A stretch of DNA of 64,000 bases from an uncultured Myxococcales bacterium. Its GTDB lineage: Bacteria > Myxococcota_A > UBA9042 > DTJE01. The DNA lies in the NCBI GenBank assembly GCA_903936705.1, contig CAIZWN010000076.1:1-64000 (forward strand). Direction: 5' to 3'. Shown here in pieces: positions 2,392-50,179 of this stretch. The number at the start of each line of letters is the position of its first letter. The first letter of the stretch is position 1. Position numbers and translations under genes: made by a program. The notes beneath the pieces were generated by a model. It was given only the letters and a program-made list of their open reading frames with translations. It was not told where the DNA came from and made no database searches.

Positions 2392-4074
2392 ATGCTGGGA
2401 GCAATGCTAAAAACTCTACTTCAGCGGGACGGAAACCTGATTGCCGAGGGTGCTGGCATTGGCACCACAGGTGCTTTTCTGCTGGTTGCCGCCCATTTCC
2501 TGTCGCTCCACTTGGCTCCGGAGTTGACGCCATTCCCAGAACGCATACTCTTGGAATCGTTCGGACTCTCCATACGTTCACTGCTGGAAGCTACGATATT
2601 GGTGTCCCAGAATGGCGGCATCTATCTTCTTACCGTCCCCTTGCTGTTGCTGGCCTGGCGACCGACGCGGCAGGTCGCAATCGTGCTGATTGGCATCGTC
2701 CTGGAACTTTGTGTTGCCTGGGGCACGGCGCTGATAATCCTGCTCGCCTACAACTTTGACCCTCTGGCTGGCCTGCTGTGTGTCCCTCTGGCCGTCCCTC
2801 TTGCCCTAATACTTGGTAGATGGCGCAGGCTTTCCCCGGGGGCGATGGTTGTCATCGTGGCAGCCCACGTGGTCCTATTCGTCAGTGTTGCCAGCCCTGT
2901 CGGGAGTGATCTCTCAGGATTCTGGCGTTGCTGGTGGATTCTTCCGTTGGCCGTGATCGTCGCGAGCCTGACCATCCGGTTCGGAACCGCTTCGCTTGCG
3001 GCCCCACGAAGCCGGTTCGTTGATATGTGGGGATTGAGTGGGCTCTTGCTTGGTACGGTGTTGCTCCTGGCTATTTCGATTACATCGATTGGCTTTAGCG
3101 AACCGTCATTGAACCTGTATTTGGAGAGCCCCGCCACCGACGTTCTAGTAATCGGTACCCCCCCCCAACTTCTTTGGACGGATAATCGGGCTATCCGAGT
3201 GCTGCCGGAGGCCTACGGTCATTCGCGGGAGCCATATTTACTGGACAGCGAAGCACAGAATCCCTGGCAGATTTGGCCGTCGGCATTCGGAGGCTTCTTC
3301 GTGCAGACTTGCGGCACCGTCAAGCGGTGGAGAAGTCCTCCCGCCGGTGGCCGGATTTCGGACCAGCCGGAGGTCCAGTTCCAGTTTCCGTCTACGTCTG
3401 CGTTCGGCAAGGAGAACGAACAGGCGGCAGCGGTGGTGGAAGATCCGTTTTCACGCAGGCTGCTAGCTGTCAGCGAGTGGTCCTCCAACTACACCATAAC
3501 AGAGATTGATACCGGGAGGATCCTGCTGTCAGCCCGTCTGACGGGCACCAACTATCCGTATGTTTCAGCGACCTTCGACCCAGTGACGAAGGTAGTCTAC
3601 GTCACCGCCTTCCTGGACGACGGAGGGTTGTATGTACTCGATCTCGCCTCTCTAGAGGTCAAACGGACGGTACCGGGACTCTATCTCCACAGGACCGTGC
3701 TTGACCACGAACGGGACGTCCTTTGGGGTGCGCGACCTATGACGGGAGAGGTCGTTGGAGTCGATCTTCAGAGCTTCGAGGTTCGTTATCGAGTGCGTTT
3801 GGGATGGGGTATACGTGACCTCGAGCTTGACCCAGAAAGCGGTGACATCTATACGTGTTCGTTCCTAAACGGCGAAGTGTTCCGGATCGATCCGGCGACC
3901 AGGACTAGTTCGGTTATTGGTCGATGTGGCTCATACTGCAGATACCTTTTCCTCGACTCCCCCAATCGCACTCTCTGGGTGGCGTCTCAAGCGGGGATCT
4001 GTCTCGTGCCGCTGCCCGCCCTGAATCCTGAGGGCACCGTCGCTCCCGGGCCTGCGAAGCCGCCTGTAAGATGA
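2392..4074 (+). CDS. Membrane protein with C-terminal beta-propeller-like repeats
   Basis: A 560-residue protein in two halves. Residues ~20-235 hold about seven hydrophobic segments, so this half is an integral membrane domain. Residues ~250-550 are soluble and contain repeated blade-like units of the form 'DP.TK.VYV...L.VLDLAS', as in YVTN/NHL-type beta-propellers. The ~70 C-terminal residues (starting GWGIRDLELDPESG) closely resemble those of the protein at 23776-25335, so the two are paralogues. ATG 2392 is used; ATG 2404 is possible. It is transcribed towards the first SPASM radical SAM gene. Role unknown; a membrane-tethered sensor or scaffold is an inference only. Confidence 0.75.
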   Translation: MLGAMLKTLLQRDGNLIAEGAGIGTTGAFLLVAAHFLSLHLAPELTPFPERILLESFGLSIRSLLEATILVSQNGGIYLLTVPLLLLAWRPTRQVAIVLIGIVLELCVAWGTALIILLAYNFDPLAGLLCVPLAVPLALILGRWRRLSPGAMVVIVAAHVVLFVSVASPVGSDLSGFWRCWWILPLAVIVASLTIRFGTASLAAPRSRFVDMWGLSGLLLGTVLLLAISITSIGFSEPSLNLYLESPATDVLVIGTPPQLLWTDNRAIRVLPEAYGHSREPYLLDSEAQNPWQIWPSAFGGFFVQTCGTVKRWRSPPAGGRISDQPEVQFQFPSTSAFGKENEQAAAVVEDPFSRRLLAVSEWSSNYTITEIDTGRILLSARLTGTNYPYVSATFDPVTKVVYVTAFLDDGGLYVLDLASLEVKRTVPGLYLHRTVLDHERDVLWGARPMTGEVVGVDLQSFEVRYRVRLGWGIRDLELDPESGDIYTCSFLNGEVFRIDPATRTSSVIGRCGSYCRYLFLDSPNRTLWVASQAGICLVPLPALNPEGTVAPGPAKPPVR

Positions 4075-4181
4075 GAGGCCGGCTGCCGAGGTTCGTCGAA
4101 AGCGTGCGCGGATAGGGCAAACGGCAGGCGCAGGAAACCGCTTCTTCATCCTGGGCTCCCCTCGAATGGTGTGACACTAAC

Positions 4182-4226
4182 ACGCCACTCGCTTTCCGGG
4201 CTGTCCAGAATCCGGGGACCAGATCA
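4182..4226. repeat. 45-bp inverted dispersed repeat, copy 1
   Basis: This segment of the 4075-4304 intergenic region is the reverse complement of 17573-17617 with a single mismatch (44 of 45 positions). Neither copy lies in a recognisable gene. Confidence 0.9.
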
Positions 4227-4304
4227 AACTCGCGCACCACCTTGACGGACTTGACCTTAATATGGCAGAGGCATTCGGGCGCTTTTCCTTTTGCTGGAGT
4301 TCAG

Positions 4305-5360
4305 ATGGCCCCCTCTATTATCGATCGCTTTCGACTGATGAGGACCTATCTGAAGGGCGATGCACATCGGGTTCCAGGCCCCTTCTGGATCGCGCTTGAA
4401 ACCACAGCCCTCTGCAACCTTCGTTGCCCGATGTGCCCTCGAACCAACGCCGGTCTACTCCAAGGCAATCTGCCAGGGGAACTGCTCTACCCGGCACTGG
4501 ACGAAGCTGCGCGCCTCGGGTGCGAGAACGTCTCCCTCTATGGCCTTGGAGAGCCTTTCCTGGATGGCCGTATTTTCGACATTCTGGAGCGTTGCCGAAA
4601 TCTCGGACTCACTACCACCCTTTCGTCGAACGGCACGTTGCTCGACGCAGAACGCCGTTCCCGCCTTCTCGAAGTCGGATGCGACCATTTCATCGTCGGC
4701 ATCGACGGCACCACGCAGGCGACGTATGAATACTACCGTGCGGGCGGGCACTTCGAGCAGGTCGTCGAGAACGTTCGCGCACTTGCAGCGGAGAAGGTCG
4801 CAAGGAACGGCCGCATGACCCTCGTCGTGCAAATGATTAGGATGCGCCGGAATCGCTCCGAACAAGACGAATTCATCCGCATATGGAGCAACGTCCGTGG
4901 GATCGACAGTGTCCGGTTGAAGGAGGAAGACATCGGCCTGCGGGAACACGCGATGAAACTCGACGGCCTGATGAAGAGGACGAATCCGTGCCATCTGTTG
5001 TGGATTGGCCCTTTATGCGTCCGTCACACGGGCGACGTGTTTCCTTGCTCCCGCATGCTGATGGCGAATTCGAATCGACTTGGCAATCTCCGGGAAGCCA
5101 AGCTCGACGAACTATGGAATTCGCAGGAAATGCGGCGTATCCGGCGCCTTCACGCAGAAGGGTTGTACGCCGAGGACCCCGTGTGTAAAGATTGCAAGCT
5201 CCTCCGGATAAGGCTGCCGTTCGTCCTGGGTGCGATGGCCGTGCCGACCCGGATTGTTCAGCGGTGGGTCCCAGTAGTCGAGCGCATGACCCTCCCCATC
5301 CCCTGGCTCCTCAGCGAAAGATGGAGCGCTACGAACGAGGGACCTCATCATCCACCCTGA
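4305..5360 (+). CDS. Radical SAM/SPASM-domain protein
   Basis: A 351-residue radical SAM enzyme. The 4Fe-4S/SAM motif CNLRCPMC sits near residue 40, followed by a (GG)LGEP-type segment (YGLGEPFLDG). A C-terminal SPASM-like Cys cluster (CHLL...LCVRHTGDVFPC and DPVCKDCKLL) would bind auxiliary Fe-S. ATG 4305 is chosen because GGAG lies 5 nt upstream; an in-frame TTG 63 nt earlier lacks support. Known SPASM enzymes modify peptides, sugars or cofactors; the substrate here is unknown. It converges on the B12 radical SAM array with a 140-bp gap. Confidence 0.88.
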   Translation: MAPSIIDRFRLMRTYLKGDAHRVPGPFWIALETTALCNLRCPMCPRTNAGLLQGNLPGELLYPALDEAARLGCENVSLYGLGEPFLDGRIFDILERCRNLGLTTTLSSNGTLLDAERRSRLLEVGCDHFIVGIDGTTQATYEYYRAGGHFEQVVENVRALAAEKVARNGRMTLVVQMIRMRRNRSEQDEFIRIWSNVRGIDSVRLKEEDIGLREHAMKLDGLMKRTNPCHLLWIGPLCVRHTGDVFPCSRMLMANSNRLGNLREAKLDELWNSQEMRRIRRLHAEGLYAEDPVCKDCKLLRIRLPFVLGAMAVPTRIVQRWVPVVERMTLPIPWLLSERWSATNEGPHHPP

Positions 5361-5500: not shown

Positions 5501-6913
5501 TTAAACCCTGTTCAGCGGTGATACGGCGCGTCGTGCCGCCAAGCCGAGGAGAACCCCGGCGGCCCTCGATGCGTATGCCAACCATTCAGGGTTGTTCCTG
5601 AGGATGAACCAAGCTGCCCGGAGCGCCCCCCCACGCAGCCCGTAGAATTCCAGGAATGCATCACGACAAAGCCTCGACAGGTCGGCCGTTGTCAGGGCAC
5701 AACGAACCTCCATCGGCATCGTATCGACCAGGTCGCTCCCTGGCAGGTAATCCAGGGGATGGAAGTCCACGAGGGTCGGACGAACAGCCACTGCGAACTC
5801 GATGTTGCCACGGATAGTGTCCCGGTCGTCTCCGGGAAGCCCGAAGATATAGGTCAGAACCGTCGCCAACCCCATGTCGTTCGCCATGGGAATCGCTTCC
5901 CGCAGGGCCGCCGGTTCGTCGGCGGAACGCCCAATGGTTCGAAGGATGGTCGGGTCCGATGACTGGGCGCCGTAGTTTACCAGTTTGCAACCGGAGTCCT
6001 TGAGCATACGGAACGCCCGCTGGCGGTCGCTGCCGAAAGTCAGGGGGTGCAGCGTGATGCCCCACGAAAGGCGAAGATCCCGATGCCGAAGGCCCTCGCA
6101 AAAGGCGTCTAGCCAGTCCAAACGCATCGCGAAGACGTCGTCCAGGAAACGAATGTACCGAGCGCCTCGGGTCCGGACCAGGAACTCGACCTCGTCCAGG
6201 ACCCGGTCGACAGGACGTCCACGATATCGACTGCCCCAGTATTTCCAGGCCACACAATATGCGCAATGATACGGGCAGCCCCGGGACGCCATCACGACGT
6301 AGTAGGGACGTTTCATTGAGATTTCGAGCAGGTCCCCGGACAACTGGTCGAAGACGGACCAGTCTGGAATTGAAAGACGACCCGGGGAGACGATAGCGGC
6401 CGGCGGCGTCACAACTCGCTGATCAAATTCGTCGTGGAAGGCAATCCCCCTCACTTCGTCGAACCCGGTTCTCCCCTCGTAGGCCCGAACAAGGGAGACA
6501 ATCGTCTCGTCGGCCTCGCCGATCACCGCCACGTCGATACCGGCGTCAAAGACATCGTCCAATTGCAACGTCGCAGGTCCGCCCGCGACAAGGCGGCCCC
6601 GGTATAACTCCCGGTCCAGCCGGGAAACGACGCTTCCGACCCGGAGGATCGACGCGTGCGTCGCGCTGAATCCGATGAGGTCGTACCGGCACGCGTTGAG
6701 TTCATCTGCTAGGTTGCGTGCGCGTTCCTGGTCGAACAGGCAGTCGAGAAGATCCACCGAGTAGCCGCATGCCTTCAGGGCTGCCGCTAGGTAACGCAAT
6801 CCCAACCCAGGTCGCTTCTGAAAGGTCTCCGGCATGAATGCGTACGGGTGGCCTTCCGACGCTGGAAGATACACCAGGGCTATCCTTCGAATCGAAGGAT
6901 CATCCTTCTGCAC
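5501..6913 (-). CDS. B12-binding radical SAM protein (array member 5)
   Basis: A 470-residue protein with an N-terminal Rossmann-like cobalamin-binding domain (about 1-165; YLAAALKACGYSVDLLD and VAGGPATLQLDD segments; no DxHxxG motif) and a central radical SAM barrel with CPYHCAYC near residue 215. The C-terminal tail has FLEFYGLRGG, a weaker form of the FYxRP motif of its neighbours. It is the last gene of a five-gene minus-strand array, 100 nt after the preceding one. The start is GTG 6913 with AAGGG nearby; an in-frame TAA lies just upstream. Class B radical methyltransferases and several lipid- or sugar-modifying enzymes share this build; the substrate is unknown. Confidence 0.88.
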   Translation of the reverse strand: MQKDDPSIRRIALVYLPASEGHPYAFMPETFQKRPGLGLRYLAAALKACGYSVDLLDCLFDQERARNLADELNACRYDLIGFSATHASILRVGSVVSRLDRELYRGRLVAGGPATLQLDDVFDAGIDVAVIGEADETIVSLVRAYEGRTGFDEVRGIAFHDEFDQRVVTPPAAIVSPGRLSIPDWSVFDQLSGDLLEISMKRPYYVVMASRGCPYHCAYCVAWKYWGSRYRGRPVDRVLDEVEFLVRTRGARYIRFLDDVFAMRLDWLDAFCEGLRHRDLRLSWGITLHPLTFGSDRQRAFRMLKDSGCKLVNYGAQSSDPTILRTIGRSADEPAALREAIPMANDMGLATVLTYIFGLPGDDRDTIRGNIEFAVAVRPTLVDFHPLDYLPGSDLVDTMPMEVRCALTTADLSRLCRDAFLEFYGLRGGALRAAWFILRNNPEWLAYASRAAGVLLGLAARRAVSPLNRV

Positions 6914-7013: not shown

Positions 7014-8474
7014 CTATGGAATAAAGTTGTTGAAGTTCTTGGTCCGGCCCAAAGGGTGACCGGCATGAAGAAACATCCGCATGCCGGCCAGCCAGGGAAC
7101 TCCGAAGAACCGCTTCTCCAACAACAGCATCAGGGATCGGAAGGGAACAACCGATGTGGCGAGGCCGCTGCACACCAAGCGACAAACCTGCGACTCCGCG
7201 AGTCCCAGGACGACTGACAGCTGGAAGACCCGAAAGAGGCGTTCGAGCCGCGTGGCATCCGGCGACCGAAAGCATGGTCTCATCTTGAACCTCCCCGACG
7301 CGACCTCCTGCTCGATGCCAGCCAGTTCCTCCCTTGTCAGATATCCCTCTTCCATGGCCCGCTGTGTCAATCGGGTACCGCGTAGCGGAATCGTGAAGTT
7401 GATTCGCGGAACCTGCACACCGAGTTCCTTGTTCAACCGTACGGTTGACAGGGCCTGGCAGAACGTTTCCCCAGGCATACCGATCATGTTGAAGGAGGCC
7501 AGCAGAATTTTAGCCTTCCGAACCCGCTCGCAACCCGCTCGAAGAACGTCGTCGCAGGCGGGCCTATCCAGGATTCGTTCCCGGAGCGTCTCGTCCCCGG
7601 ATTCGATCCCCACCGCGACACCGTGGCATCCCGCTTCCGACAGCAACGAGACCGTCTCCTCGGTCAGGCTCATCGGCGTCGCGTTGCATGTAAACGGCAC
7701 TCCGACGTCCCGGCGGTACCGTCCAGCAAACTGTCGCAACCATCCGGCATCATGTGTGAACAGGTCATCACCCATATGTACGTGTCGGGCCGGGTACCGG
7801 GCCAGAGAGGTCGCTATCTCCTCCACGAAACCTGGGGCGCTCTTGCGCCGCACGTACTGGCCCAGGGACCGGGTTCCACGACTCAGTTCGTTGTTGTAGC
7901 AGTAGCTGCATTTATTGGGACAACCGCGTCCAGACACGAAACGCCGCACACCCAGTTCAAGGAGATATGGGTAGGGCTCAAATAGAGACACGTCCGGCGC
8001 CGGGAGCGACTCGATATCCTGCAGGTAGGGAGGAAGCGGGTTCCGACACCACGCCCCGCCATCGACGCGCCAGTGCAGTCCCGGAACGTTTTCGAAATCT
8101 CCCTGTCCCGACGACAGCACGCTTGCTAGGGCCGGCAGTGCAACGTCGCACTCACCGGGAATGACTAAGCGGAACTCGGGCCTGGCAAGGACAGCCTCGA
8201 TATCGAGCGTTGGGTAGGTGCCTACCACGACGAGAGGAGCTTTGACGCAACCCGCGATTTTCGATGCAAGTGTCAGCCCCCAGTAATGTCCTCCGATATC
8301 GATGGCTATCACGATCAGCCCGGGATCGAAACGGCCGAGTGACCCGAACAGGTCCCGCTCGTCGTTCTCGATGAAGAGCCGGGGCAAATGTCCTTCCAGC
8401 TTCAGCACGCTGGACAAGACCAGGAGAGCGGCAGATTCGTTCATGCCGGAGTCCTGGATGAACGCGATACGCAC
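7014..8474 (-). CDS. B12-binding radical SAM protein (array member 4)
   Basis: A 486-residue cobalamin-binding radical SAM protein. The N-terminal domain (~1-150) includes LIVIAIDIGGHYWG and VVVGTYPTLD. The radical SAM motif CPNKCSYC lies near residue 190, and a later MIGMPGET segment matches the conserved GxPGET strand of this family. GTG 8474 is supported by GGGAGG 7 nt upstream. The C-terminal ~100 residues are more divergent than in the other array members and lack FYxRP. The gap to the upstream gene is 64 nt, so co-transcription is likely. Reaction and substrate unknown. Confidence 0.88.
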   Translation of the reverse strand: MRIAFIQDSGMNESAALLVLSSVLKLEGHLPRLFIENDERDLFGSLGRFDPGLIVIAIDIGGHYWGLTLASKIAGCVKAPLVVVGTYPTLDIEAVLARPEFRLVIPGECDVALPALASVLSSGQGDFENVPGLHWRVDGGAWCRNPLPPYLQDIESLPAPDVSLFEPYPYLLELGVRRFVSGRGCPNKCSYCYNNELSRGTRSLGQYVRRKSAPGFVEEIATSLARYPARHVHMGDDLFTHDAGWLRQFAGRYRRDVGVPFTCNATPMSLTEETVSLLSEAGCHGVAVGIESGDETLRERILDRPACDDVLRAGCERVRKAKILLASFNMIGMPGETFCQALSTVRLNKELGVQVPRINFTIPLRGTRLTQRAMEEGYLTREELAGIEQEVASGRFKMRPCFRSPDATRLERLFRVFQLSVVLGLAESQVCRLVCSGLATSVVPFRSLMLLLEKRFFGVPWLAGMRMFLHAGHPLGRTKNFNNFIP

Positions 8475-8538: not shown

Positions 8539-9945
8539 CTACCCGTGCTGGATGCAGGTCTTCAGCAGCGTTGCCACTCCTCGGATCGAACGCCGCATCT
8601 GCTCGAACGACAATAGGTCCGGCAGCCGCCTCCACACGTACGCCGGACGAAGGTAGAATCGCCGGTAGGCAAACCGTTGGAGTTCCTTCAACTCCGCTTT
8701 GTCACGAAAGCCGTTCGGAATGAAAACTGGCCCCCGGAAGTCGATCTGAGACAGGTCCCAGGTGTCGTCCAGGCGCCCACAGTCGGCGAACGGATTTTCA
8801 AGCCCGTAGTATTTCCACAGGAAGAACTGCGCATAGTCGGGGGCCAGGTCGATGGCCAGGTCGATCGTCCGAAGGACGTCTGCCCGATCTTCGCCGGGCA
8901 AGCCCAGAATGAAGGACGCGGTGACCTCGATGCCGGCGTCCCTGGCAGCCCGAACAGCCTTCAGCGCGAGGTCCGGGGTGATTCCCTTGCCGACCCGATC
9001 TAACGCGTGCTGGTTCGCTGATTCGACGCCTACTAGGACGTTCCAGCAACCCGTAGCAGCCATGCGCTCCAAGACATCCGGCGTCATAAGGTTGGCGCGC
9101 ATAAGGGCCGACCAAGTCACGTCCAGCTTCTCGCGCTCCAGCCCATCGCATAACTCAAAAACCCATTCCTTCCGTATCCCAAACGTGGCGTCGCTGAACT
9201 GGATCTCGCGCGCCCCGTATCGCTCGATGGCAAACCGGATCTCGCGCAGCACGTCCGGCACCGAACGCAGACGGTAGTGAATAATCTTGCTGTAGGTAGC
9301 CTCCTTACAACAAAGGCAGGCGAACGGGCATCCCCGGCTCGCGAGGAGCGGGTACATCGGCGTACGTCTGTAGCGATGGGGGACGAAGGTATACCGCTTG
9401 AAATCAATCAGGTCCCAGGCGGGAAACGGGAGCTTGTCGAGATCCTCGACGACGTCTCCTGCTCCAGTCTCGACCACCCTACCGCCATCGCGTACGAGCA
9501 GTCCAGGTATAGCGGAAAGATCGGTTCCGCCGTGCGCGGCAATCCGGGCCATCGCCAGTTCATATTCGCCGCAAATCGCGAAGGACAGGCCTCCGGCATC
9601 GTCCATGCACTGGCGAAGAAACCCGGCGTCCACACTGCCGCCTAGGCCTAGGATCATGTGCGGGGCAGCGCCGTGAATCCGACGGACCAGTTCGATTGTC
9701 ACGCGTGGTTCAGTCTCGCGGGTATAGTCGAAAGGAAGGAGAAGCGTCAGATCAGGATTTACCTCCAGCACGCGTTCGACCGTCTCATTGATATCAAGAT
9801 CTTCGAGAAACGCGTCCAGAATCGAAACTTCGGTACCTGCTTCGCGAAGAACCGCCGCCGAGTACAATGCGTACTGCGGGGGATGACGAGGAAAGATCCC
9901 CTGTTTCGTGACGCTGAGAGGCGGCTCGATCAGGAGTACCCGCAT
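8539..9945 (-). CDS. B12-binding radical SAM protein (array member 3)
   Basis: A 468-residue protein starting MRVLLIEPPLS, the usual first strand of the cobalamin-binding domain in this family, followed by YALYSAAVLREAG and a LGLGGSVDAGF segment. The radical SAM motif is CPFACLCC near residue 208, with an extra Cys between the second and third ligands. ILGLPGED and a C-terminal RRFYLRPAYVWRRL complete the family pattern. Co-directional with neighbours at 58 and 64 nt. It probably transfers a methyl group or rearranges an unactivated carbon; the substrate is unknown. Confidence 0.9.
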   Translation of the reverse strand: MRVLLIEPPLSVTKQGIFPRHPPQYALYSAAVLREAGTEVSILDAFLEDLDINETVERVLEVNPDLTLLLPFDYTRETEPRVTIELVRRIHGAAPHMILGLGGSVDAGFLRQCMDDAGGLSFAICGEYELAMARIAAHGGTDLSAIPGLLVRDGGRVVETGAGDVVEDLDKLPFPAWDLIDFKRYTFVPHRYRRTPMYPLLASRGCPFACLCCKEATYSKIIHYRLRSVPDVLREIRFAIERYGAREIQFSDATFGIRKEWVFELCDGLEREKLDVTWSALMRANLMTPDVLERMAATGCWNVLVGVESANQHALDRVGKGITPDLALKAVRAARDAGIEVTASFILGLPGEDRADVLRTIDLAIDLAPDYAQFFLWKYYGLENPFADCGRLDDTWDLSQIDFRGPVFIPNGFRDKAELKELQRFAYRRFYLRPAYVWRRLPDLLSFEQMRRSIRGVATLLKTCIQHG

Positions 9946-11470: not shown

Positions 11471-11533
11471 GCCCGTTCTCCACGCCCAACCGGCGTCGAC
11501 ACATGGCCGGCCCCGATGGAACAACATCGTATC

Positions 11534-18031: not shown

Positions 18032-18057
18032 CTGCCCCGTTCTTGGGGACGTCAATC

Positions 18058-19455: not shown

Positions 19456-19468
19456 GTTGGAGAACGTT

Positions 19469-23705: not shown

Positions 23706-23775
23706 CCAGATCCTCGGGACAATATGGGTTTCGCTGCCATCCCCATCCGGCGCTCCGCCCATGGCAATGCGGACG

Positions 23776-26507: not shown

Positions 26508-26514
26508 GCGCGCG

Positions 26515-31138: not shown

Positions 31139-31270
31139 GGATACGTTCCCTCGAGTTCGGTGAAGGGCCGCCAGCATGATGTCGGCTCGCCCGGGAACTG
31201 TCAAATGACCGGACAATCGGTTGGACCAACTGACGCCGGACGGTTTCGAGGTGATGGGGCAACGTGAACG

Positions 31271-37434: not shown

Positions 37435-37534
37435 GGGTCGTACCTTGGCGGGGTCGCCGATACGGCATGATATCGGCGACACCGCGGCCATGCAACACCG
37501 GGGGGCTCCGGTTCGGGCGGGACTACCCAATGGA

Positions 37535-39803: not shown

Positions 39804-39805
39804 CC

Positions 39806-41478: not shown

Positions 41479-43217
41479 AGTGTTCCGGTCGCAGTCGTGC
41501 ATGCGCTTCCGGAACAGGCGAGGCTGGAGTCCTTGGGATCTGGGACGGCCACGACGCGGGGGTGGCCCTGATCACAGCGAACGGACTGGCCTTTGCGCTG
41601 TCGGAGGAGCGTCCATCCAGGCGGAAGCGATTTTCAGGCTTTCCCTGCCTGGCACTGGAAGCGGCTCTGGACTGGTCCGCTGCCAACGGTATTACCTTGA
41701 CCGATATTGCGCTGGCTGGCCGTCATGGTCGGGCGCCGCTGCGTATCCTGGAGCCGCTGTATAGGTGGTCCGACCCGTCACGGGATCCATTCTCGGTGCC
41801 CAGCAGGATGGCTCGAGGATGGGAGAACATCCTGCCATCACTGCCCGGTCTGCGGGCCGTCGAATCGCTGATCGCCGCGACCGTCGTTCGTGCGCGGTCG
41901 ATCCGGCTCGTGCCCCGCGGCAAGAAATCCTTGCGCTGGCACCTCGTCGATCATCATGACGCCCACGCTTTCTCGGCCCTTCTAGGGGGAGAGGGAAACG
42001 GACCGGCTGCCGTGATTACCTGGGACGCCTACGGGGAGGGTCGTTCCGGTTCCTTGCGATCGGCCGGGAATCCATTGCAAGCCCTTGAATCAATGCCGAC
42101 TTCTGCGGGTATCGCCTCTTTGTATGGGGCGATCACGGTTCTGATGGGTTTCGGCGAAGGGGATGATGGCAAGGTGATGGGACTTGCAGCGTCCGGCAGC
42201 CCGGAACCTGCCCGGAGACGGTTTCGAGACCTTTTCGACGTCCGGACCGGCATACCCGTGTTGCGACAACCCCTGACCCGGAGCGGGCTTCTGCGTATCC
42301 TGCGCGATTACTCCCGGGAGGATGCCGCCGCCGGTCTCCAGGCTGCAGTGGAAGAACTTGCCCTTCAGTGGATTGACCTGGCCCGGGCCCGGGTACCTGG
42401 AGCCCGCCGCCTGCTGCTGGCCGGTGGTCTTTTCGGCAACGTGCTGCTGAATCGGAGCATTGCCTCGCTTCCGGGCGTGGATGAATGCTTCGTGTTTCCC
42501 CATATGGGTGACGGGGGTCTTGCCGCCGGGGCGGCCCACGCTGCCTGGTGGTCCAGGTACGGATCCCTGGTTCGCCCACTGCGCCACGTCCTGCTTGGTC
42601 CGGAACCTGCTCCCGATGACGTCGCAGCCGTCGCCCGGCAGAGCGGCCGCGTCGTCTGCCGCGCGGCGGATCAGGCCGTCGAGATCGCTCGCCACCTGGC
42701 GGCTGGTCGGGTCGTCTGCCGATATGCTGGTCGCGACGAGTTCGGCCCGCGGGCGCTGGGAAACCGTTCCGTCCTCTTCGCGGCTAACGATCCGTCGACG
42801 CCGGCGCGCGTAAATGCCGCGCTGCGCCGGGACGGCTTTATGCCATTCGCACCTGCTGTACATCCCAGTGAGGCCGCAGCGGCGTTTCCTGGATCGTCTT
42901 CCGGCGCGGACCTTCGCTTCATGACCTGCTGTGCCGACGCCTCTGAAGCGTTTCGCAAGCAGAATCCCGGAGCGGTTCATGTTGATGGGACCGCCCGCCC
43001 GCAGGTTGCCGATGCGGTCTCCGCGCCGGCCATGAACGCGGTTTTGACGGCGGCCCGTGACCTGGGCCTCAGTGCCGTGGTGAACACGTCCTTCAACCTC
43101 CACGGCGAGCCTATCGTGCACACCCCAACCGATGCGGTTCGCACCTTCATGGCATCGGGTCTGGACGTTCTGCTGATGGACGACTTTGTTCTCGGGGGTA
43201 ACTGTGCGTTGGACTGA
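41475..43217 (+). CDS. O-carbamoyltransferase (NodU/TobZ family)
   Basis: A 580-residue two-domain enzyme that would use carbamoyl phosphate and ATP to carbamoylate a hydroxyl group. The N-terminal Kae1-like half has GIWDGHDAGVAL near 21 and the metal-binding VDHHDAHAFSAL at ~158-169. The C-terminal half has FGPRALGNRSVL, FMPFAPAV, HVDGTARPQ and VNTSFNLHGEPIV. Homologues act on sugars in Nod factors, aminoglycosides (TobZ) and other glycosides. ATG overlaps the GT2 stop; the last 14 bp overlap the next gene. The acceptor here is unknown, but a sugar fits the operon. Confidence 0.88.
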   Translation: MKCSGRSRACASGTGEAGVLGIWDGHDAGVALITANGLAFALSEERPSRRKRFSGFPCLALEAALDWSAANGITLTDIALAGRHGRAPLRILEPLYRWSDPSRDPFSVPSRMARGWENILPSLPGLRAVESLIAATVVRARSIRLVPRGKKSLRWHLVDHHDAHAFSALLGGEGNGPAAVITWDAYGEGRSGSLRSAGNPLQALESMPTSAGIASLYGAITVLMGFGEGDDGKVMGLAASGSPEPARRRFRDLFDVRTGIPVLRQPLTRSGLLRILRDYSREDAAAGLQAAVEELALQWIDLARARVPGARRLLLAGGLFGNVLLNRSIASLPGVDECFVFPHMGDGGLAAGAAHAAWWSRYGSLVRPLRHVLLGPEPAPDDVAAVARQSGRVVCRAADQAVEIARHLAAGRVVCRYAGRDEFGPRALGNRSVLFAANDPSTPARVNAALRRDGFMPFAPAVHPSEAAAAFPGSSSGADLRFMTCCADASEAFRKQNPGAVHVDGTARPQVADAVSAPAMNAVLTAARDLGLSAVVNTSFNLHGEPIVHTPTDAVRTFMASGLDVLLMDDFVLGGNCALD

Positions 43218-44274
43218 CGGCCTGCGCCTGCTTCCGGCCGTGCTGGCCGCCCGCGTGATCCCCGGCGGCCGACCCTACAAGATGCTCCTGTCCCTGACCG
43301 ATCGATGCAACCTGCGATGCAACCACTGCTTTACCTGGAAGCGCACCGCCGGAACCGAGATGTCTCCAGACGAAGCCTACCGCTTGCTTGCCGGCCTTCC
43401 GTCACTTCGCTGGCTGGACCTGACCGGTGGTGAACCTACCCTGCGTCCGGACAGGGATGCCATGGCTGACGCCGTGCGGGCCGCCACTGTCGACCGCTTG
43501 GCTTTCCTGCACTTTGCTACCAACGGCTTTGATCCTGCCGCTTCGGTCGCCTTTGCGGATCGACTTCATCGCCAGGGGGATCCTCCGCTGGTGGTAACGG
43601 TCAGCCTGGATGGCGACCCGACTACCCACGATGCTCTGCGAGGGCGCCGCGGTTCCTTCGACCGTGCGGTTGAGACCGCCCGCGCCCTGGATAAGCGCCC
43701 TGGTATCACGGTCTATGTCGGCACTACTGTCACCCCGGCAAACGCCGATCGCCTGGATGCCACGGCTGTCGCGTTGACGAGGGTTCTTCCGGGCCTGGTC
43801 CCGGACCGCTGGCACGTGAATCTCATGAACCGTTCGCAGCACTTCTTCGGAAACGCTGGAGCATCCCTTCCCACGGCAGTCCAGGTGCGTGTGGCTCTCG
43901 ACCAGGTGGACCGGATCCGGGGCCGATCCCTCGATCCCTTCGCGTTGCTCGAGCGAGCCTTTCTGAACGGTTTGCGGCGCCACTTGAGGGATTCTCGACC
44001 CCCCGTACTTTGCCAGGCTCTGTCAGCCTCGGTGTTCGTGTCGCCCACCGGAATCGTGCATCCGTGCCACGTGCTGGACGAACCGGTCGGCGACTTGCGA
44101 GATGCCGGGTTCGACCTCGAGCGTGTGCTGTCCGGCGATCGTGCCCGGGCCGCGCGCGCCCGGGTTTTGCGGGGGTGCGGACAGTGCTGGACGCCTTGCG
44201 AGGCCTACCACGCGCTCCTTGGCTCGCCCCTGACTGCCGTCAGGCTGGCGCTGGAACCTTCCGCCCGGCCTTGA
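43204..44274 (+). CDS. Radical SAM/SPASM-like protein
   Basis: A 356-residue protein with CNLRCNHC near residue 38, DLTGGEPTLRPD near 75, SLDGDPTT near 140, and C-terminal Cys motifs (LCQALSASVF...GIVHPCHV; CGQCWTPC) that suggest auxiliary cluster binding. The GTG start overlaps the carbamoyltransferase by 14 bp and has GGGGG 5 nt upstream, so it is the seventh gene of the operon. Substrate unknown. Confidence 0.86.
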   Translation: MRWTDGLRLLPAVLAARVIPGGRPYKMLLSLTDRCNLRCNHCFTWKRTAGTEMSPDEAYRLLAGLPSLRWLDLTGGEPTLRPDRDAMADAVRAATVDRLAFLHFATNGFDPAASVAFADRLHRQGDPPLVVTVSLDGDPTTHDALRGRRGSFDRAVETARALDKRPGITVYVGTTVTPANADRLDATAVALTRVLPGLVPDRWHVNLMNRSQHFFGNAGASLPTAVQVRVALDQVDRIRGRSLDPFALLERAFLNGLRRHLRDSRPPVLCQALSASVFVSPTGIVHPCHVLDEPVGDLRDAGFDLERVLSGDRARAARARVLRGCGQCWTPCEAYHALLGSPLTAVRLALEPSARP

Positions 44275-44316
44275 CACAATCTGCCGCTCAGCGTACCTGT
44301 GCCCCTGGAGGTCCCC

Positions 44317-45840
44317 TTGCCTGGCCGCCACGAGCGAATCGCAATCCTGGTCTTGTCTGCGTTGATCTTCCTGTTCAGTGGCTTACGTTTCGATGGCCCC
44401 AGCCGTGGCTACTGGGACACATACATATCGGTCCCGGCCATGTTCATGACCGGCCAGCCGGTAGACCTCCACCGAATTGACGGTACGCCGCGCTTCACGT
44501 ACCTACTTCAGGGGCGCGTCCCCGACGACACCTATGACCCGGCCCCAGGCTCCTACGGCATCGCCTCCGAGGACCAGCGCATCGGAACCGCGATCCTGCT
44601 GGCTGCCCCGTTCGCGCTCTTCAATCTGGCCGCCTTTCGCTGGGGCTTCGCCGCCGCCTGGACTGTCGTCTTCCTGTTCGGCTGCCTGTCCTTCAGACGC
44701 CTGGTCTTGCCGTCGCCGCGTGCTGGACCACTGGCCATCGCCGCGGCCCTTGTGCTGGTCCTGAATCCGTTTTCGCTCTATATCGAGCGCTTGAATGGGA
44801 ACCTTTTCGGACTGGCAGGCATGGCCTTTCTTTGGTGGCTGACCACCGACGAGCATCCACGCTGGGGCCTGGCTGGGCTGGTCTACGGCATCCTGGGCGG
44901 GATCCGGAATGAGGCCATCGTCATTGCTCCACTGTTCCTTGTCCTGATGTGGGCAGCCACTCGCCGAGGCGCCCCCTTCGCGAAGGCATTTGTTGCCTTC
45001 GTGGCGGCGGCTTTCGCCGGCATACTTCCGGTGCTTTTCTGGAACGATTTTGCATACGGAACTGCCCTTATTCACCCGTCGCAGGTCGAGCGGCTTCAGG
45101 GGTTCAGACCCACGTTTTTGCACCATTTCATGGGATCGGAATTCGCGTTCAATGGCTTGCTGAACTGGCCCTTCCACGATGATCTGGTTCGCACGCCGCA
45201 CTTCGCGTACCCGACCTTCCTGCTGTGGCCGCTAGTCACGGCCAAGGCCCTGGGGGTCGTGCTGCTGTCGGCGGCGGTGCTGGGGGCCGGTGTGCTTGTG
45301 CGGCGACGGCCTCTTCACGCCGCGCTGTTGCTGTTCTGGTACGGAATCGTTTACGCGCTGTTCATGTTCCAGGAGAACTGGGAGGAGCTGAAGCAGACTT
45401 TCATGGCGCTGCACCTGTTCCCGCTGGGGGCCTTCCTCGTGGCAGGGATGGGCTGGATCGCCGAGCGTTCTGCGGGGTGGAGCCGTTGGGGTGCCGTTGG
45501 AGCCCTGTCGCTGGCGCTTGCCGTCGGTGTGTGGTCGGCTCGCCTGCTGGACGTGCCGGCAGACGAGCGGTGGTATGTGCGCTTTCCGCACGCAGCCGCG
45601 AACGAATCGGGCCTGGCCGAGCTTCCCGAGGCGCTCCGTAAGGACTGGCAATATTTCTACACCAGGGAAACTACGGTCGAGGTTCAGCGGGAGCGCATGC
45701 ACCTGGCGACGCCGTCGGTGCTACCCGCGTCGTACCGTCCGATCCATTGGCCTGACGCAGAGGATCTGCGTAGCATCGCCGGAGAACCCTTCCGGAAGGA
45801 CCTTAGGACGCTGGCCATCTGGAGCTACATATATGAGTGA
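44317..45840 (+). CDS. GT-C-type membrane glycosyltransferase
   Basis: 507 residues with about ten transmembrane helices. After the first helix comes a short periplasmic loop with RGYWDTYIS, where GT-C enzymes carry a catalytic Asp. A later FNGLLNWPFHDDLVRTPHF segment is shared with the 50299-52506 protein. GT-C enzymes transfer sugars from polyprenyl-phosphate donors on the periplasmic side. TTG 44317 is chosen (GGAGG 5 nt upstream); GTG 44299 is in frame. Its end overlaps the MBL gene by 8 bp. Donor and acceptor unknown. Confidence 0.78.
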   Translation: MPGRHERIAILVLSALIFLFSGLRFDGPSRGYWDTYISVPAMFMTGQPVDLHRIDGTPRFTYLLQGRVPDDTYDPAPGSYGIASEDQRIGTAILLAAPFALFNLAAFRWGFAAAWTVVFLFGCLSFRRLVLPSPRAGPLAIAAALVLVLNPFSLYIERLNGNLFGLAGMAFLWWLTTDEHPRWGLAGLVYGILGGIRNEAIVIAPLFLVLMWAATRRGAPFAKAFVAFVAAAFAGILPVLFWNDFAYGTALIHPSQVERLQGFRPTFLHHFMGSEFAFNGLLNWPFHDDLVRTPHFAYPTFLLWPLVTAKALGVVLLSAAVLGAGVLVRRRPLHAALLLFWYGIVYALFMFQENWEELKQTFMALHLFPLGAFLVAGMGWIAERSAGWSRWGAVGALSLALAVGVWSARLLDVPADERWYVRFPHAAANESGLAELPEALRKDWQYFYTRETTVEVQRERMHLATPSVLPASYRPIHWPDAEDLRSIAGEPFRKDLRTLAIWSYIYE

Positions 45841-46594
45841 GCCCGGGGTCGCGCGGCTTTGCGTGACGATGATCCGGTGCGCGACGCTGTTGCTGGAGGC
45901 GCCTGGCCTGCGCCTGTTGACCGATCCGTGGTTTTCGATGCATCTTCGTGGGCTGCCCTGTTTCCGTCGGCCGTCATGCTCACCGCAAGCCCTTCCAGTG
46001 GTTGACGCACTGCTGGTCAGCCATCTGCATCCGGACCATTGGGATGCCCGGGCGGTCTCCCGTATGTGTCCTGTGCCGCCAGTCGCCTTCCTGCCCCCTG
46101 GGTCGCTGGCCAGGTTGAAAGGTCCGCTGCCTGGCTGGCGCGAGCTGGCGCCATGGACCTCCGCGATGCTGGGTTCGGCCGAGGTCTTTTCCGTGCCTGG
46201 CCCCCATACCGGCCCAGCACCCGAGGAAGTGAACTTCCTGCTGAGCCTTCCAGGCTGGGGTACCGTGTTTTTCGGCGGAGACGCAAGGCTGGACGAACAG
46301 GTGCTGGCCGAGGTGCGACGGCGTCACGGTGCCGTGCGCCTGGCTCTGTTGCCGGTCGGCGGGACCCGCATTCTGGGCAGGCGGACCGTGATGTCGCCGG
46401 AGGACGCTCTGCGGGCGGCCGATCTGCTCGGCGCCTCGCGCATCGTTCCGATCCACGAGGGCGGGATTTGGATGAGCGTGCCTCCACTCAGCCTCCATCC
46501 GGGCCGGGCCGCGGACCTGAGTCGCCTGGTGCACGCGCGGGGCGAGTCCAACCGCCTGCTGGTCCTTCGCGAAGGGGAGTCAGCCGACGTCTGA
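45833..46594 (+). CDS. Metallo-beta-lactamase-fold hydrolase
   Basis: A 253-residue protein with the metal-binding SHLHPDHWD motif at ~63-71 (HxHxDH), GGDARLD near 145 and a later conserved His in VPIHEGG near 207. This layout fits UlaG-like or other MBL hydrolases that cleave lactones, phosphodiesters or similar bonds. ATG 45833 lies inside the end of the GT-C gene, so translation is coupled. It may remove a protecting or activating group in the pathway. Confidence 0.82.
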   Translation: MSEPGVARLCVTMIRCATLLLEAPGLRLLTDPWFSMHLRGLPCFRRPSCSPQALPVVDALLVSHLHPDHWDARAVSRMCPVPPVAFLPPGSLARLKGPLPGWRELAPWTSAMLGSAEVFSVPGPHTGPAPEEVNFLLSLPGWGTVFFGGDARLDEQVLAEVRRRHGAVRLALLPVGGTRILGRRTVMSPEDALRAADLLGASRIVPIHEGGIWMSVPPLSLHPGRAADLSRLVHARGESNRLLVLREGESADV

Positions 46595-46645: not shown

Positions 46646-48328
46646 TCAGGCCCCTGGCGGGACTACGAGGAATGGCCCAAGGGCGAGTGCGTCCAACCTT
46701 CCCTGGAGGAACGACCGCACGGCATCCGCGGGGGTTGCCACGATCGGTTCCTGATGCATGTTGAAGGACGTGTTGATGATGCTGGGGATGCCAGTCTTCT
46801 CCAGCACTATGCGCAGGATACGGTGGTAACCCGGGTCGTCCTCCTCGCGGACCAGCTGCGGGCGCGCCGTGCCGTCCAGGTGCACAACCGCTGGTGACAT
46901 CCTTCGCATGGTTTCCGTGCAGCGGAACGTGATCGTCATGAAGCGGGCCGTGTGTTCGGCCCCCTTGCCAAAATCCTCGTAGCACCGGGCGGCGTGGTCG
47001 ATCAGCGTGGCTGGGGCAAAGGGCATGAACTCGCTGCGCCGAAGTCGATCATTCAACCAGGTGTTGACCGATGGGTCCTTCGCATGGTGCAGGATCGATC
47101 TGTGGCCCAGTGCTCTTGGCCCGTATTCCATGCGTCCCGTGAACCGCGCGACGGTCCGGCCCTGGACTACCAAATCGGCTATCCGGGCATCTATGTCCCT
47201 GCAGCGTTCGGCCGTCAGTCGCGCCTCTTCCAGCGCCAGGCCCATCTCCTCTTCGGAGTAGAGCGGTCCCAGAAATGCGTGGGGGATCGGGTGTGGCATG
47301 GCGCCGACAGTCTCCGCCACGTGGGCCAGGGCGGCGCCGACAGCGATGCCCTGGTCTGACATGGCGGGGTGGATGAAGATACCATCCACCTCCGGCAGGT
47401 TCCACAGGCGTTGGTTCACCAGCACATTGGCGAAGACGCCGCCTGCCAGCACTATGTTCCGGTCGCCGGTCTCGCGAAGACCGCGCCGAACGAAGGCGAC
47501 CAGCACGTCCTCCAGGCGCTTCTGGGCCGCGGCGGCCACGTCCTCCTTACGGAAGCGGGCCAGTTCCGCGTATAGGCCACGTCGCCGGGAGCGGGTCCAA
47601 ACGGGCGATACGGTAAAGGAGGTGCCGTCAGGGGCGAGGTCTATGAGCTTCCGCATGATCGAGTAGGCCGGGCGTGGGTCGCCATGGGCCGCAAGTCCAG
47701 TCACCTTGCCGGCCAGCAGGACGTGGAAGCCCAGGAATTGCGAGATCTCACCGTAGAACTGACCTGGAGACCGTACTGCGTCTGAGCCCCAGAGTACCTC
47801 GCAGTGCCCGCCCCGGCAGCGGAAGATCCGCGCCGACCAGCCGTCCCCCAGGTTGTCCACCGATACCGCCAGGGCCTCTGGAAAGCCCGACGTCAGGTAG
47901 GCCGTGTAGGCGTGGGCTGTATGATGGTCGATCAGCGAGACCGGCCGACCGAAGCGTCGCTTCAGCAGTGCGGCCGACAGCGACTCTGCTGCACGCGCAG
48001 CGACGCCGCCCTGCGCCATGCCTGCCTGGAAGAACAGCCAGGCCTTGTGCAGTGGCCCGAAGAGGTCGTGTTCGCCCTCCAGGACTCCAGAGCCCAACAG
48101 GCGCGGGAGGAAGTGGGTCCTGTTACCAGCCACCACAGAGTCCACGGCGTCGATGTCCACTCCGGCGAGCGCCAGGACGGCTTCCACCGATCTGGTCGGG
48201 AAGCCCCCCTGGAAGCGCGTGCGTGTCAGGCGCTCCTCGGCAACGGCAGCAACGATCTCTGTTCCGCGCAGGAGGGCTGCGTTGGCGTTGCTGTCCTCGT
48301 GGATGGCCAGGATAAGGGGGGCAGCCAT
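46646..48328 (-). CDS. O-carbamoyltransferase (NodU/TobZ family), second copy
   Basis: A 560-residue enzyme with the metal-binding DHHTAHAYTAYL near 134-145, an N-terminal LAIHEDSNAN and EERLTRTRF, and a C-terminal half with YGPRALGHRSIL, FMPFAPATL, HLDGTARPQ and INTSFNMHQEPIV. ATG 48328 has GGGAG 5 nt upstream. It converges on the MBL gene (51-bp gap) and diverges from the B12 radical SAM gene at 48463. Clear but distant similarity to 41475-43217 suggests a different acceptor hydroxyl. Confidence 0.88.
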   Translation of the reverse strand: MAAPLILAIHEDSNANAALLRGTEIVAAVAEERLTRTRFQGGFPTRSVEAVLALAGVDIDAVDSVVAGNRTHFLPRLLGSGVLEGEHDLFGPLHKAWLFFQAGMAQGGVAARAAESLSAALLKRRFGRPVSLIDHHTAHAYTAYLTSGFPEALAVSVDNLGDGWSARIFRCRGGHCEVLWGSDAVRSPGQFYGEISQFLGFHVLLAGKVTGLAAHGDPRPAYSIMRKLIDLAPDGTSFTVSPVWTRSRRRGLYAELARFRKEDVAAAAQKRLEDVLVAFVRRGLRETGDRNIVLAGGVFANVLVNQRLWNLPEVDGIFIHPAMSDQGIAVGAALAHVAETVGAMPHPIPHAFLGPLYSEEEMGLALEEARLTAERCRDIDARIADLVVQGRTVARFTGRMEYGPRALGHRSILHHAKDPSVNTWLNDRLRRSEFMPFAPATLIDHAARCYEDFGKGAEHTARFMTITFRCTETMRRMSPAVVHLDGTARPQLVREEDDPGYHRILRIVLEKTGIPSIINTSFNMHQEPIVATPADAVRSFLQGRLDALALGPFLVVPPGA

Positions 48329-48412
48329 GAACTCTCCCGAGCGGTCTCGGCGAAGGATAGCGTTCCAGGCTTCGCGGGTCACGTACCAAGATGCATTCTG
48401 GTGTCCCTGGCC

Positions 48413-48441
48413 TTGACCCGCCTTGGAACGTTCGGCATTCT
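48413..48441 (+). promoter_or_regulatory. Putative promoter of the 48463 gene
   Basis: TTGACC (48413-48418), 17-nt spacer, cattct (48436-48441), 21 nt before the GTG start, in the divergent spacer between the carbamoyltransferase and radical SAM genes. Confidence 0.4.
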
Positions 48442-48462
48442 TGGGCAAACCCGGAGGGGTCG

Positions 48463-49905
48463 GTGCGCATTGTTCTCGTCAATCCGCCGTTCCAGGCGCG
48501 CGTTCGTCGTATTGCCCAGACCACGCTGGGGCCGCCCCTGGGTTTGGCCTACCTTGCCTCCAGTCTGCGGGCGGCAGGGCACGATGTTCGCATCATCGAC
48601 GCCAACGCGCTGGGTCTTGCTCCCGATGCATCGGCCCGCACGGCACTGGAACAGCAGCCTGACCTGGTGGGCGTTACCGCGACGACGGCCACGATCCATG
48701 TTGCCTCTGCCGTAGCGACGGCCGTCAAGCGGTTGCGCCCGGACGTGACCACGGTGGTGGGCGGTCCCCATGCCACCGCGCTGCCTTCCAGGACGCTGGC
48801 CGAGTTTCCGGCCTTCGATCTGGTTGCACGGGGCGAGGCCGAGCGTTCATTCCCTGCACTGGCGGATCGACTTGCTGTCCGTGATGCGGTGGCCGCTCGG
48901 GAGCTGCCCGGATTTGCGTGGAGGAACCTCGATGGTTCCGTTCACGACACCGGTCTGCCAGACCCCATCGATGATCTCGATGCGCTGCCGGTGCCTGCCC
49001 GTGATCTTTTGCCAATGGATCGATACCGGGGCGTGGACTCCTCACGTTTCTCTACCATCCTTGCGATGCGGGGCTGCCCTTGCGCCTGCGTCTATTGCGC
49101 GGTCCCCGAGATGTTCGGTCGTCGCATGCGCTACCGTTCTCCCGCCGGGGTCGCCGACGAGATGGAGGACATCCATCGGCGATTCGGGGTGGATTTCCTT
49201 TCCTTCGTAGACGATACATTCACGACCCGTCCCGAGTGGGTGCTGGCGCTTTGCGACGAACTTGTGCGCCGTGGCCTTCCGGGGCGCCTGCGCTGGGTCT
49301 GCCTCACGCGGGCCGACATGGTGGATGTCCTTCTGCTGCGCCGGATGAAGCAGGCAGGGTGCGTGCGCGTCGAGATGGGCATCGAGTCCGGAAGCGCCGT
49401 CGGTCGCGGCTACCTGCGCAAGGGCCTGTCCGAGGACGACGTCCTGAGGGGCTACGCAGCTGCCAGAGAGGCTGGCTTGTCCACGATGGGCTTCGTGATA
49501 CTGAACATCCCCGGAGAGACGGCCGCTGACGTCGAGCGGACGCTGGATCTGGCGATCCGTGCCGATCCCGACTACCTCCAGGTCTCCTTCCTGACTCCCT
49601 ACCCGGGTACTGCCCTGCGCGAGGATGCCCTTCGCAACGACTGGATCTCGACCGACGACTGGTCCAGGTACAGTTTTCTGAATGACGTGATCCTTCTGAA
49701 CCCTTCACTGACGGCCGAGGAGGCCCGCGCGCTGCATGCCAGGGTGACCCGCGCCTTCTGGATCCGGCCACGGACAGCGTTCAACCTGGCCAGACTGGTT
49801 CTTAATGGCACTACCCGCCCTGGCCCTCTGCTGCGCACTATTGCCTTGGGACTGGGGGCGATGGCTTTGGGCCTGCGCGACCGGGGAGGGAAAGGACATG
49901 CCTGA
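48463..49905 (+). CDS. B12-binding radical SAM protein
   Basis: A 480-residue protein from GTG 48463 (GGAGG 5 nt upstream; N-terminus VRIVLVNPPFQ). The cobalamin-type domain has LGLAYLASSLRAAGHDV and VVGGPHATALPSR. The radical SAM motif CPCACVYC near residue 205 carries an extra Cys. VILNIPGETAAD is the GxPGET strand, and RAFWIRPRTAF the C-terminal motif. Overlaps the small membrane protein by 8 bp. Substrate unknown. Confidence 0.9.
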   Translation: MRIVLVNPPFQARVRRIAQTTLGPPLGLAYLASSLRAAGHDVRIIDANALGLAPDASARTALEQQPDLVGVTATTATIHVASAVATAVKRLRPDVTTVVGGPHATALPSRTLAEFPAFDLVARGEAERSFPALADRLAVRDAVAARELPGFAWRNLDGSVHDTGLPDPIDDLDALPVPARDLLPMDRYRGVDSSRFSTILAMRGCPCACVYCAVPEMFGRRMRYRSPAGVADEMEDIHRRFGVDFLSFVDDTFTTRPEWVLALCDELVRRGLPGRLRWVCLTRADMVDVLLLRRMKQAGCVRVEMGIESGSAVGRGYLRKGLSEDDVLRGYAAAREAGLSTMGFVILNIPGETAADVERTLDLAIRADPDYLQVSFLTPYPGTALREDALRNDWISTDDWSRYSFLNDVILLNPSLTAEEARALHARVTRAFWIRPRTAFNLARLVLNGTTRPGPLLRTIALGLGAMALGLRDRGGKGHA

Positions 49906-50179
49906 AGTGACCGTCCTGCCCTTGCAGGCGTTGGCATTCCTGATCGCCTTTTTACTTCCCGGGGCTGCCTGGACGTGGCATCACGACCCCAATCGTCCCA
50001 TTGAGGTTCGCCTCGCCGTTGGCGCGGTGGTTGGCTTCCTGGTGGTCCCGATGGTCTCATTCTGCGCGGCCTGGGTCCTGGGTACCAGCGTCCGGCCTGC
50101 CCTGGTTCTCGCTGTTGCAGTCGCCTTGGCAGGTCCTGCCGTTGCGCTGGCCTTGCTGCGTCGCCGCGGGAGTCGGTGA
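49898..50179 (+). CDS. Small membrane protein, three predicted helices
   Basis: 93 residues with hydrophobic segments at ~8-22, 38-58 and 65-85 and an Arg-rich end. ATG 49898 overlaps the end of the B12 radical SAM gene, with GGAGGG upstream. No family recognised. It could be a membrane anchor for the pathway enzymes. Confidence 0.55.
   Translation: MPEVTVLPLQALAFLIAFLLPGAAWTWHHDPNRPIEVRLAVGAVVGFLVVPMVSFCAAWVLGTSVRPALVLAVAVALAGPAVALALLRRRGSR

Follow-up and report, generated by a model that had tools for sequence, protein, structure and literature searches.

The window analysed here is a stretch of 64,000 nucleotides that forms the first 64 kb of the 163,846-base contig CAIZWN010000076.1, part of a metagenome-assembled genome (MAG; 4.85 Mb in 84 contigs) of an uncultured Myxococcales bacterium whose closest relatives with a name are in turn MAGs of uncultured Myxococcota or deltaproteobacteria. 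It carries 14 genes of radical S-adenosylmethionine (SAM) enzymes, which a preliminary description made from the sequence had joined into a single undescribed pathway. We find that this locus is very probably a composite island, in which three or more gene sets found separately elsewhere are joined, and not one pathway of 14 radical SAM enzymes. These sets are an array of five cobalamin (B12)-dependent radical SAM genes (array L), a module around two further radical SAM enzymes and another of the B12 type (module M), and an operon (module R) that is a genuine conserved biosynthetic system, the product of which is probably a cell-surface sugar decorated with sulfur and carbamate. The physical clustering of radical SAM genes seen here is thus not equivalent to one product, and the single-pathway reading is corrected.

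Radical SAM genes and their distribution among relatives

Pfam model PF04055 finds exactly 14 radical SAM genes in the window, every one over the cut-off and with an open reading frame, and each protein has one CxxxCxxC motif (14/14), in line with the earlier count. Genome-wide there are 85 matches to the model; 14 of them fall in 47.8 kb where 0.84 would be expected (p 1.6e-13), and the next-densest 50 kb holds five. Eight of the nine genes described as B12-binding have the corresponding domain (PF02310) over the cut-off; the ninth, w05, has no Pfam match to it but aligns over 417 residues, beginning at residue 1, with w15, an alignment that spans the B12 domain of the latter. Likewise, a SPASM domain (PF13186) was recovered in three of the five proteins said to be SPASM-like (w03, w17 and w31), whereas w19 and w25 lack a Pfam match and retain a C-terminal cysteine cluster. 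The preliminary description knew of no matching pathway, and this holds: when we assigned the 14 proteins to subgroups with NCBIfam, all stayed far below every equivalog cut-off (best scores 200.9 of 481 bits for BchE, 213 of 750 for ApyD, 180.5 of 578 for HpnJ and 131 of 500 for AprD4), and their substrates are therefore not readable from family membership.

The 14 genes divide into five in array L, three in module M (w19, w21, w25), two in module R (w31, w35) and four without a module (w03, w14, w15, w17; Table 1). Marker genes were searched by tblastn or blastp in about 52 relative genomes (G numbers in the following), which are all MAGs with rough gene calls; Fisher tests count genomes or genera as independent, the genus count serving as a rough control of relatedness. 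The R markers w26 and w32 are each found as a single copy in 15 genomes from six families, and 14 of the 16 genomes with either one carry both (p 1.2e-10; 4.8e-7 at the genus level). Close relatives of the L marker w08 occur in nine genomes, among them G001 and G046 without R, and R is present without a close L in G007, G009, G014, G018 and G044. Seven genomes hold close relatives of the M marker w21, only two of them together with R (the source genome and G002); the distribution of w21 is associated neither with that of w32 (p 0.66) nor with that of w08 (p 0.35). Since the distributions of the three sets differ and their markers occur apart, the 14 enzymes very probably do not make up one pathway, and L and M would be separate modules, each with its own substrate.

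Some observations nevertheless weigh against a clean separation. Apart from the extreme clustering itself, L and R lie on one contig in G002, w32 is present in seven of the nine genomes with close w08 relatives (p 0.0012), and relatives of the WecB gene w13 (37-40%) sit within the R loci of G002 and G018, near GT2/toroid-type genes, a link between R and some of the genes in the middle of the locus. L and R may therefore cooperate, though shared descent may also cause this association, and absences may reflect missing contigs since all genomes are MAGs. A single pathway that employs all 14 enzymes to build a heavily C-modified glycan is still very improbable: M is independent of both other sets, L and R each occur without the other, no orthologue of w14 was found in the 52 relatives, and orthologues are split among these genomes, which largely matches the outcome that the preliminary description named as refuting the idea. 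Of the 14 enzymes, the glycan-type operon R, itself conserved, includes just w31 and w35. The single-pathway reading is unsupported.

It is possible, but we consider it doubtful, that the island is a radical SAM hot spot where mobile elements have gathered unrelated or decaying modules. An IS3-type (rve) transposase gene lies beside the locus (1019-1849) and a DDE_5 transposase gene inside it (13740-15035), directly adjoining array L; other radical SAM-dense loci of differing content exist within the genus (G002:C34, G001:C13); and the G+C content shifts along the locus from 0.58-0.63 to 0.65. Against this, all 14 radical SAM genes are intact, and R and L are kept as units elsewhere.

Module R and its proposed product

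Module R (37.6-50.2 kb) is compact, with intergenic gaps of -14 to +24 bp between w26 and w33, and recurs with altered gene order in G002, G007, G009, G012, G014, G018, G019, G023 and G044. Outside the class of the window's genome, G147 has a near-complete version in 10.6 kb that comprises eight core genes, NifU and the CC-motif protein (see w26b below) and is missing w35; G163 and G055 have R in part. The radical SAM gene w31 is present in the R loci of ten of these genomes (G002, G009, G012, G014, G018, G019, G023, G044, G147 and G163). Genes like w31, w35, w34 and w32 were also found on an Omnitrophota MAG contig, and w35-, w26-, w34- and w32-like genes with a family 2 glycosyltransferase (GT2) gene on an archaeal one (L031, 6.9-19.7 kb, archaeon SI047_bin43, 25% G+C), both occurrences being single MAG contigs for which a binning error is possible. 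The gene set appears to be inherited jointly across Myxococcota families and, partly, other phyla. Relatives of w26 were not found in viral contigs, and those on plasmids belong only to the distant TgsB group. The archaeal contig further carries a second B12 radical SAM gene and a polysaccharide deacetylase gene, and a variant locus (L121, G080:C95, 8.7-17.5 kb) has two w26-like genes, three carbamoyltransferase genes in a row and a radical SAM-like gene.

Seemingly, R couples radical chemistry in a single operon with the transfer of sulfur, of carbamoyl groups and of lipid-linked sugars. Tentatively, with somewhat less than even confidence, we propose that it makes a thionated, carbamoylated and radical SAM-modified sugar that is delivered via polyprenyl phosphate. 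The cysteine desulfurase w27 and the YcfA-like PP-loop enzyme w26 would introduce sulfur into a precursor, the SPASM enzyme w31 (together with the B12 enzyme w35 in some lineages) would modify a carbon centre, and the carbamoyltransferases w30 and w34 would add carbamoyl groups. The putative polyprenyl-phosphate sugar synthase w29 would then load the sugar onto its carrier, and an acceptor outside the membrane would receive it from there through the membrane protein w32. What the sequences show is the modularity, the conservation and the identity of the domains; we infer the reaction order, substrate, sulfur transfer, carrier lipid and product from the homologues named.

Sulfur transfer is proposed because of several lines of evidence. 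Beyond the sequence profile of w26 (Table 1), its predicted fold (a model of moderate confidence) best matches YcfA (9kq7, E 5e-10), the second-ranking sulfurtransferase being TtuA; w27 has cysteine desulfurase motifs, though it scores 335 bits on the SufS model, under the cut-off of 475; NifS and NifU occupy the w27 position in G044; and a comparable pairing is known from tgs operons (see below). Alternatively, w26 could be a PP-loop amide, nitrile or ammonia ligase in the manner of QueC, ArtA or asparagine synthetase that performs no thionation, with the desulfurase merely supplying the Fe-S clusters of the radical SAM enzymes. This is unlikely in our view: weaker matches to QueC and the nitrile synthetase ArtA, the nature of NifU as an Fe-S scaffold and the absence of C96 and C99 from TgsB would fit it, yet YcfA is clearly the top match by both sequence and fold, the desulfurase gene directly adjoins w26 in the window as well as in G002, G006, G009, G012 and G014, and C99 and C190 are kept in all R members aligned.

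The proposed sulfur, carbamoyl and sugar-transfer pathway meets contrary details at three of its genes. Sulfurtransferases of the TtuA/TtcA type that carry a [4Fe-4S] cluster have three cluster cysteines, a CxxC pair and a distant one. The case for such a triad in w26 is weakened by G023, where C96 is a phenylalanine, so that a TtuA-like cluster is not assured. The alpha/alpha-toroid protein w28 and its paralogue w12 come closest by sequence profile to the C-terminal domains of terpene cyclases (E 1e-13), yet by fold they match the toroids of terpene cyclases, glucuronyl hydrolases and epimerases alike, and no function is therefore assigned. The putative identity of w32 as a GT-C transferase derives from its size, membrane character and context, not from Pfam; it has weak homology to w37-type membrane proteins.

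Taken as a whole, the composite island together with this R pathway is the best explanation we can offer, and one that we judge about evenly poised between right and wrong. A bolder and rather doubtful extension would see in R a new class of surface glycoconjugate pathway, in which a sugar or sugar-linked group is thionated by a YcfA-type enzyme, reworked in its carbon skeleton by radical SAM chemistry and carbamoylated, and in which membrane transferases of a new family release the unit from polyprenyl phosphate to its destination, with a patchy distribution in Myxococcota, Omnitrophota and archaea, and in L a pathway composed purely of cobalamin-dependent radical SAM enzymes.

Next to w26 lies w26b, a gene of 89 codons that was absent from the gene list of the preliminary description. 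Its family has the N-terminus M(A/G)xCC(G/N)..K and adjoins w26 in most R loci (G014, G018, G019, G023, G026, G027, G044, G147 and G163).

Array L, module M and the remaining genes

Array L (5.5-13.1 kb) consists of five B12 radical SAM genes and no other gene type, and it could also be rebuilt in the congeners G001 and G002 and in G046 from another family; in G001 and G002, a different B12 radical SAM gene fills the w06 position. Its neighbours in G001 are unrelated genes (for a cytochrome c554-type protein, an MFS transporter and a histidine kinase), so the substrate of L is probably produced elsewhere, and L alone may work on a lipid of other origin. The array poses the question of what role a pathway made solely of five cobalamin-dependent radical SAM enzymes plays. 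Further dense B12 radical SAM arrays of different content were seen at G001:C13:40-54 kb (L020), where a second pair resembles w07 and w08 (39%), at G002:C34:71-94 kb (L018, L019) and at G046:C402:2-11 kb (L024).

Module M (28.9-37.5 kb) is built around a trio of B12 radical SAM, radical SAM and DegT genes that recurs in G004, G005, G010, G013 and G025, mostly without R, and its gene set is compatible with a pathway to an amino sugar.

Table 1. Genes of the island and their positions in the window
Gene	Assignment	Position	Strand	Evidence and relatives
w03	radical SAM/SPASM	4242..5360	+	PF04055, PF13186
w04	B12 radical SAM, array L	5501..6913	-	PF04055+PF02310; 76% G002, 68% G001 beside w05/w07/w08
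w05	B12 radical SAM-like, array L	7014..8474	-	PF04055; 72% G002, 69% G001, 56% G046
w06	B12 radical SAM, array L	8539..9945	-	PF04055+PF02310; 60% G046 beside w07/w08
w07	B12 radical SAM, L core pair	10004..11527	-	64-80% in G001, G002, G046, G006
w08	B12 radical SAM, L core pair	11534..13060	-	83/81/67/60% in G002/G001/G046/G006
w11	GT2, w29 paralogue	16641..17420	+	PF00535; 45% to w29; 56% relative inside G012 R locus
w12	alpha/alpha-toroid protein, w28 paralogue	18043..19158	+	alignment; 44% G008:C181 beside w15-like and WecC-like genes
w13	WecB, UDP-N-acetylglucosamine 2-epimerase	19457..20638	+	TIGR00236, 434.7 bits, cut-off 210
w14	B12 radical SAM	20875..22224	+	PF04055+PF02310
w15	B12 radical SAM	22236..23828	-	PF04055+PF02310; best relative 39%
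w17	radical SAM/SPASM	25353..26555	-	PF04055, PF13186
w18	nucleotide-sugar dehydrogenase, WecC-like	27075..28412	+	TIGR03026, 387.5 bits, cut-off 189.8
w19	radical SAM, module M	28906..29907	-	w19/w25-type gene beside w21 in G004, G010, G005, G013, G025
w20	DegT aminotransferase, module M	29912..31216	-	PF01041; beside w21 in G004, G010, G005, G013
w21	B12 radical SAM, module M	31271..32746	-	67% G002:C107, 57% G004/G010, 50% G005/G011, 43% G013
w22	DegT, module M type	32971..34209	+	PF01041; 46% G025 beside w21/w25
w25	radical SAM, module M	36400..37530	-	adjoins w21 in G002:C107, G013, G025
w26	YcfA/TgsB-like PP-loop sulfurtransferase, R core	37568..38311	+	profile E 1.3e-24 to YcfA chain 9kq6; 15/52 genomes
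w26b	89-aa membrane protein MGCCN..., R	38311..38580	+	relatives adjoin w26 in nine genomes
w27	SufS-like cysteine desulfurase, R	38580..39803	+	RxGxHC and PLP-Lys motifs; PDB cysteine desulfurases
w28	alpha/alpha-toroid protein, R	39806..40792	+	model pLDDT 83; SHC-, UGL-, epimerase-type toroids
w29	GT2, putative polyprenyl-phosphate sugar synthase type, R	40789..41478	+	nearest PDB dolichol-P-mannose synthase and ArnC, E 2e-12
w30	carbamoyltransferase, R	41475..43217	+	PF16861/PF02543; GdmN/NovN/TobZ
w31	radical SAM/SPASM, R core	43204..44274	+	PF04055, PF13186; in R loci of ten relatives
w32	513-aa membrane protein, read as putative GT-C transferase, R core	44299..45840	+	no Pfam match; 15/52 genomes
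w33	metallo-beta-lactamase (MBL) hydrolase, R	45833..46594	+	HxHxDH plus further invariant His/Asp; metal-binding set complete
w34	carbamoyltransferase, R core	46646..48328	-	Carbam_trans_N and Carbam_trans_C; 66-70% in relatives
w35	B12 radical SAM, R in part of range	48391..49905	+	59-63% in five genomes; nearest PDB AprD4, E 7e-36
w36	93-aa membrane protein, R accessory	49898..50179	+	45-47% beside w35 in G008, G014

The saccharide setting put forward for the locus holds, and most enzymes listed with it were recovered by Pfam or NCBIfam, namely two GT2 proteins, the pyridoxal phosphate (PLP) enzymes (two DegT proteins and the SufS-like class V enzyme), two carbamoyltransferases and the MBL hydrolase. 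One of two SGNH hydrolases was found as well, the other (at 15366) falling slightly under the Pfam cut-off. From the supposed WecB/WecC pair, w13 reaches its equivalog, but w18 belongs to the NDP-sugar dehydrogenase subfamily only, with 343.8 bits on the WecC equivalog (PRK11064, cut-off 459). As for GT-C transferases, no Pfam model matches w32 or the protein at 50299, and only the one at 61630 has a weak PMT_2 match. Large membrane proteins are encoded downstream of R at 50299-52506 (weak homology to w32), 59617-61749 and 61630-63918 (the PMT_2 protein). A GT2/alpha/alpha-toroid gene pair occurs twice in the window as paralogues, w11 with w12 (from 16641) and w29 with w28 (39806-41478). The proteins w02 (2404-4074) and w16 (23776-25335) have no Pfam match, are alike in their C-terminal regions (36% over 78 aa), and are each encoded next to a SPASM radical SAM gene.

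Comparison with known systems

Module R is apparently a conserved and undescribed operon. In the literature, with most subscription journals outside our coverage, we found no described system with its gene combination, and among papers on glycan clusters with multiple B12 radical SAM enzymes within the same coverage none matches that of the locus.

Ladderane clusters of anammox bacteria are a precedent for radical SAM genes in lipid clusters (PMC2649909), and the preliminary description had considered lipid-tail coupling by Tes- or Mss-like enzymes. Either lipid reading is highly improbable for this locus, and we discarded it because of the model scores and gene content. Several of the B12 radical SAM proteins do score on the ladderane model TIGR04072, and Mss homologues are reported in 12 of 347 Black Sea Myxococcota MAGs (PMC11868695); the best ladderane score is, however, 131 bits against a cut-off of 360, the Tes model NF045702 gives 42.4 and 38.4 bits against 450, and neither FabF, an acyl carrier protein nor other fatty-acid genes were found among the window proteins scanned.

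With AprD4 and other B12 radical SAM enzymes of antibiotic and hopanoid pathways (ApyD, BchE, HpnJ), the proteins of the window share the two-domain architecture, and AprD4 is the nearest structure to w35; they differ in scoring far under the equivalog cut-offs and, for array L, in forming a set of five such genes alone. The carbamoyltransferases w30 and w34 have both Carbam_trans domains of the sugar O-carbamoyltransferases TobZ, NovN and GdmN (E 1e-46 to 1e-62) and putatively carbamoylate a sugar hydroxyl, but their setting is not an antibiotic cluster: the operon also encodes a conserved membrane protein and a GT2 of the polyprenyl-phosphate type. Lipid-linked transfer by DPM1/ArnC and ArnT/PMT is echoed in w29, which is nearest to dolichol-phosphate mannose (DPM) synthase and ArnC, and in the large conserved membrane protein w32; in R, though, the latter lacks a Pfam GT-C match, and the precursor would be altered by radical SAM, sulfur and carbamoyl enzymes.

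The 6-thioguanine clusters (ycf of Erwinia amylovora, tgs of Staphylococcus chromogenes) resemble R in that tgs pairs a PP-loop sulfurtransferase with a class V cysteine desulfurase: w26 matches TgsB at about 30%, and its match in the published tgs operon (PMC7994395) is an unnamed gene behind that of the class V PLP enzyme. The main rival to our reading of R builds on this likeness and holds that the product is a soluble sulfur-bearing small molecule, akin to a thionucleotide or an aminoglycoside, and not a membrane-linked glycan. Although the w26/w27 pair resembles TgsB/TgsA, the carbamoyltransferases resemble TobZ, GdmN and NovN, and w35 is nearest to AprD4, we regard this as improbable: the DPM/ArnC-like GT2 and w32 belong to the core of R, no resistance or export genes were seen, and NUDIX, HAD and DMT genes are absent beside w26 and w27, unlike in tgs (no NUDIX hydrolase corresponding to YcfB/TgsC was matched among the window proteins scanned). 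R further differs from the 6-thioguanine gene set by its radical SAM enzyme, carbamoyltransferases, GT2 and membrane protein, and w26 by Cys99 and Cys190, which TgsB does not have.

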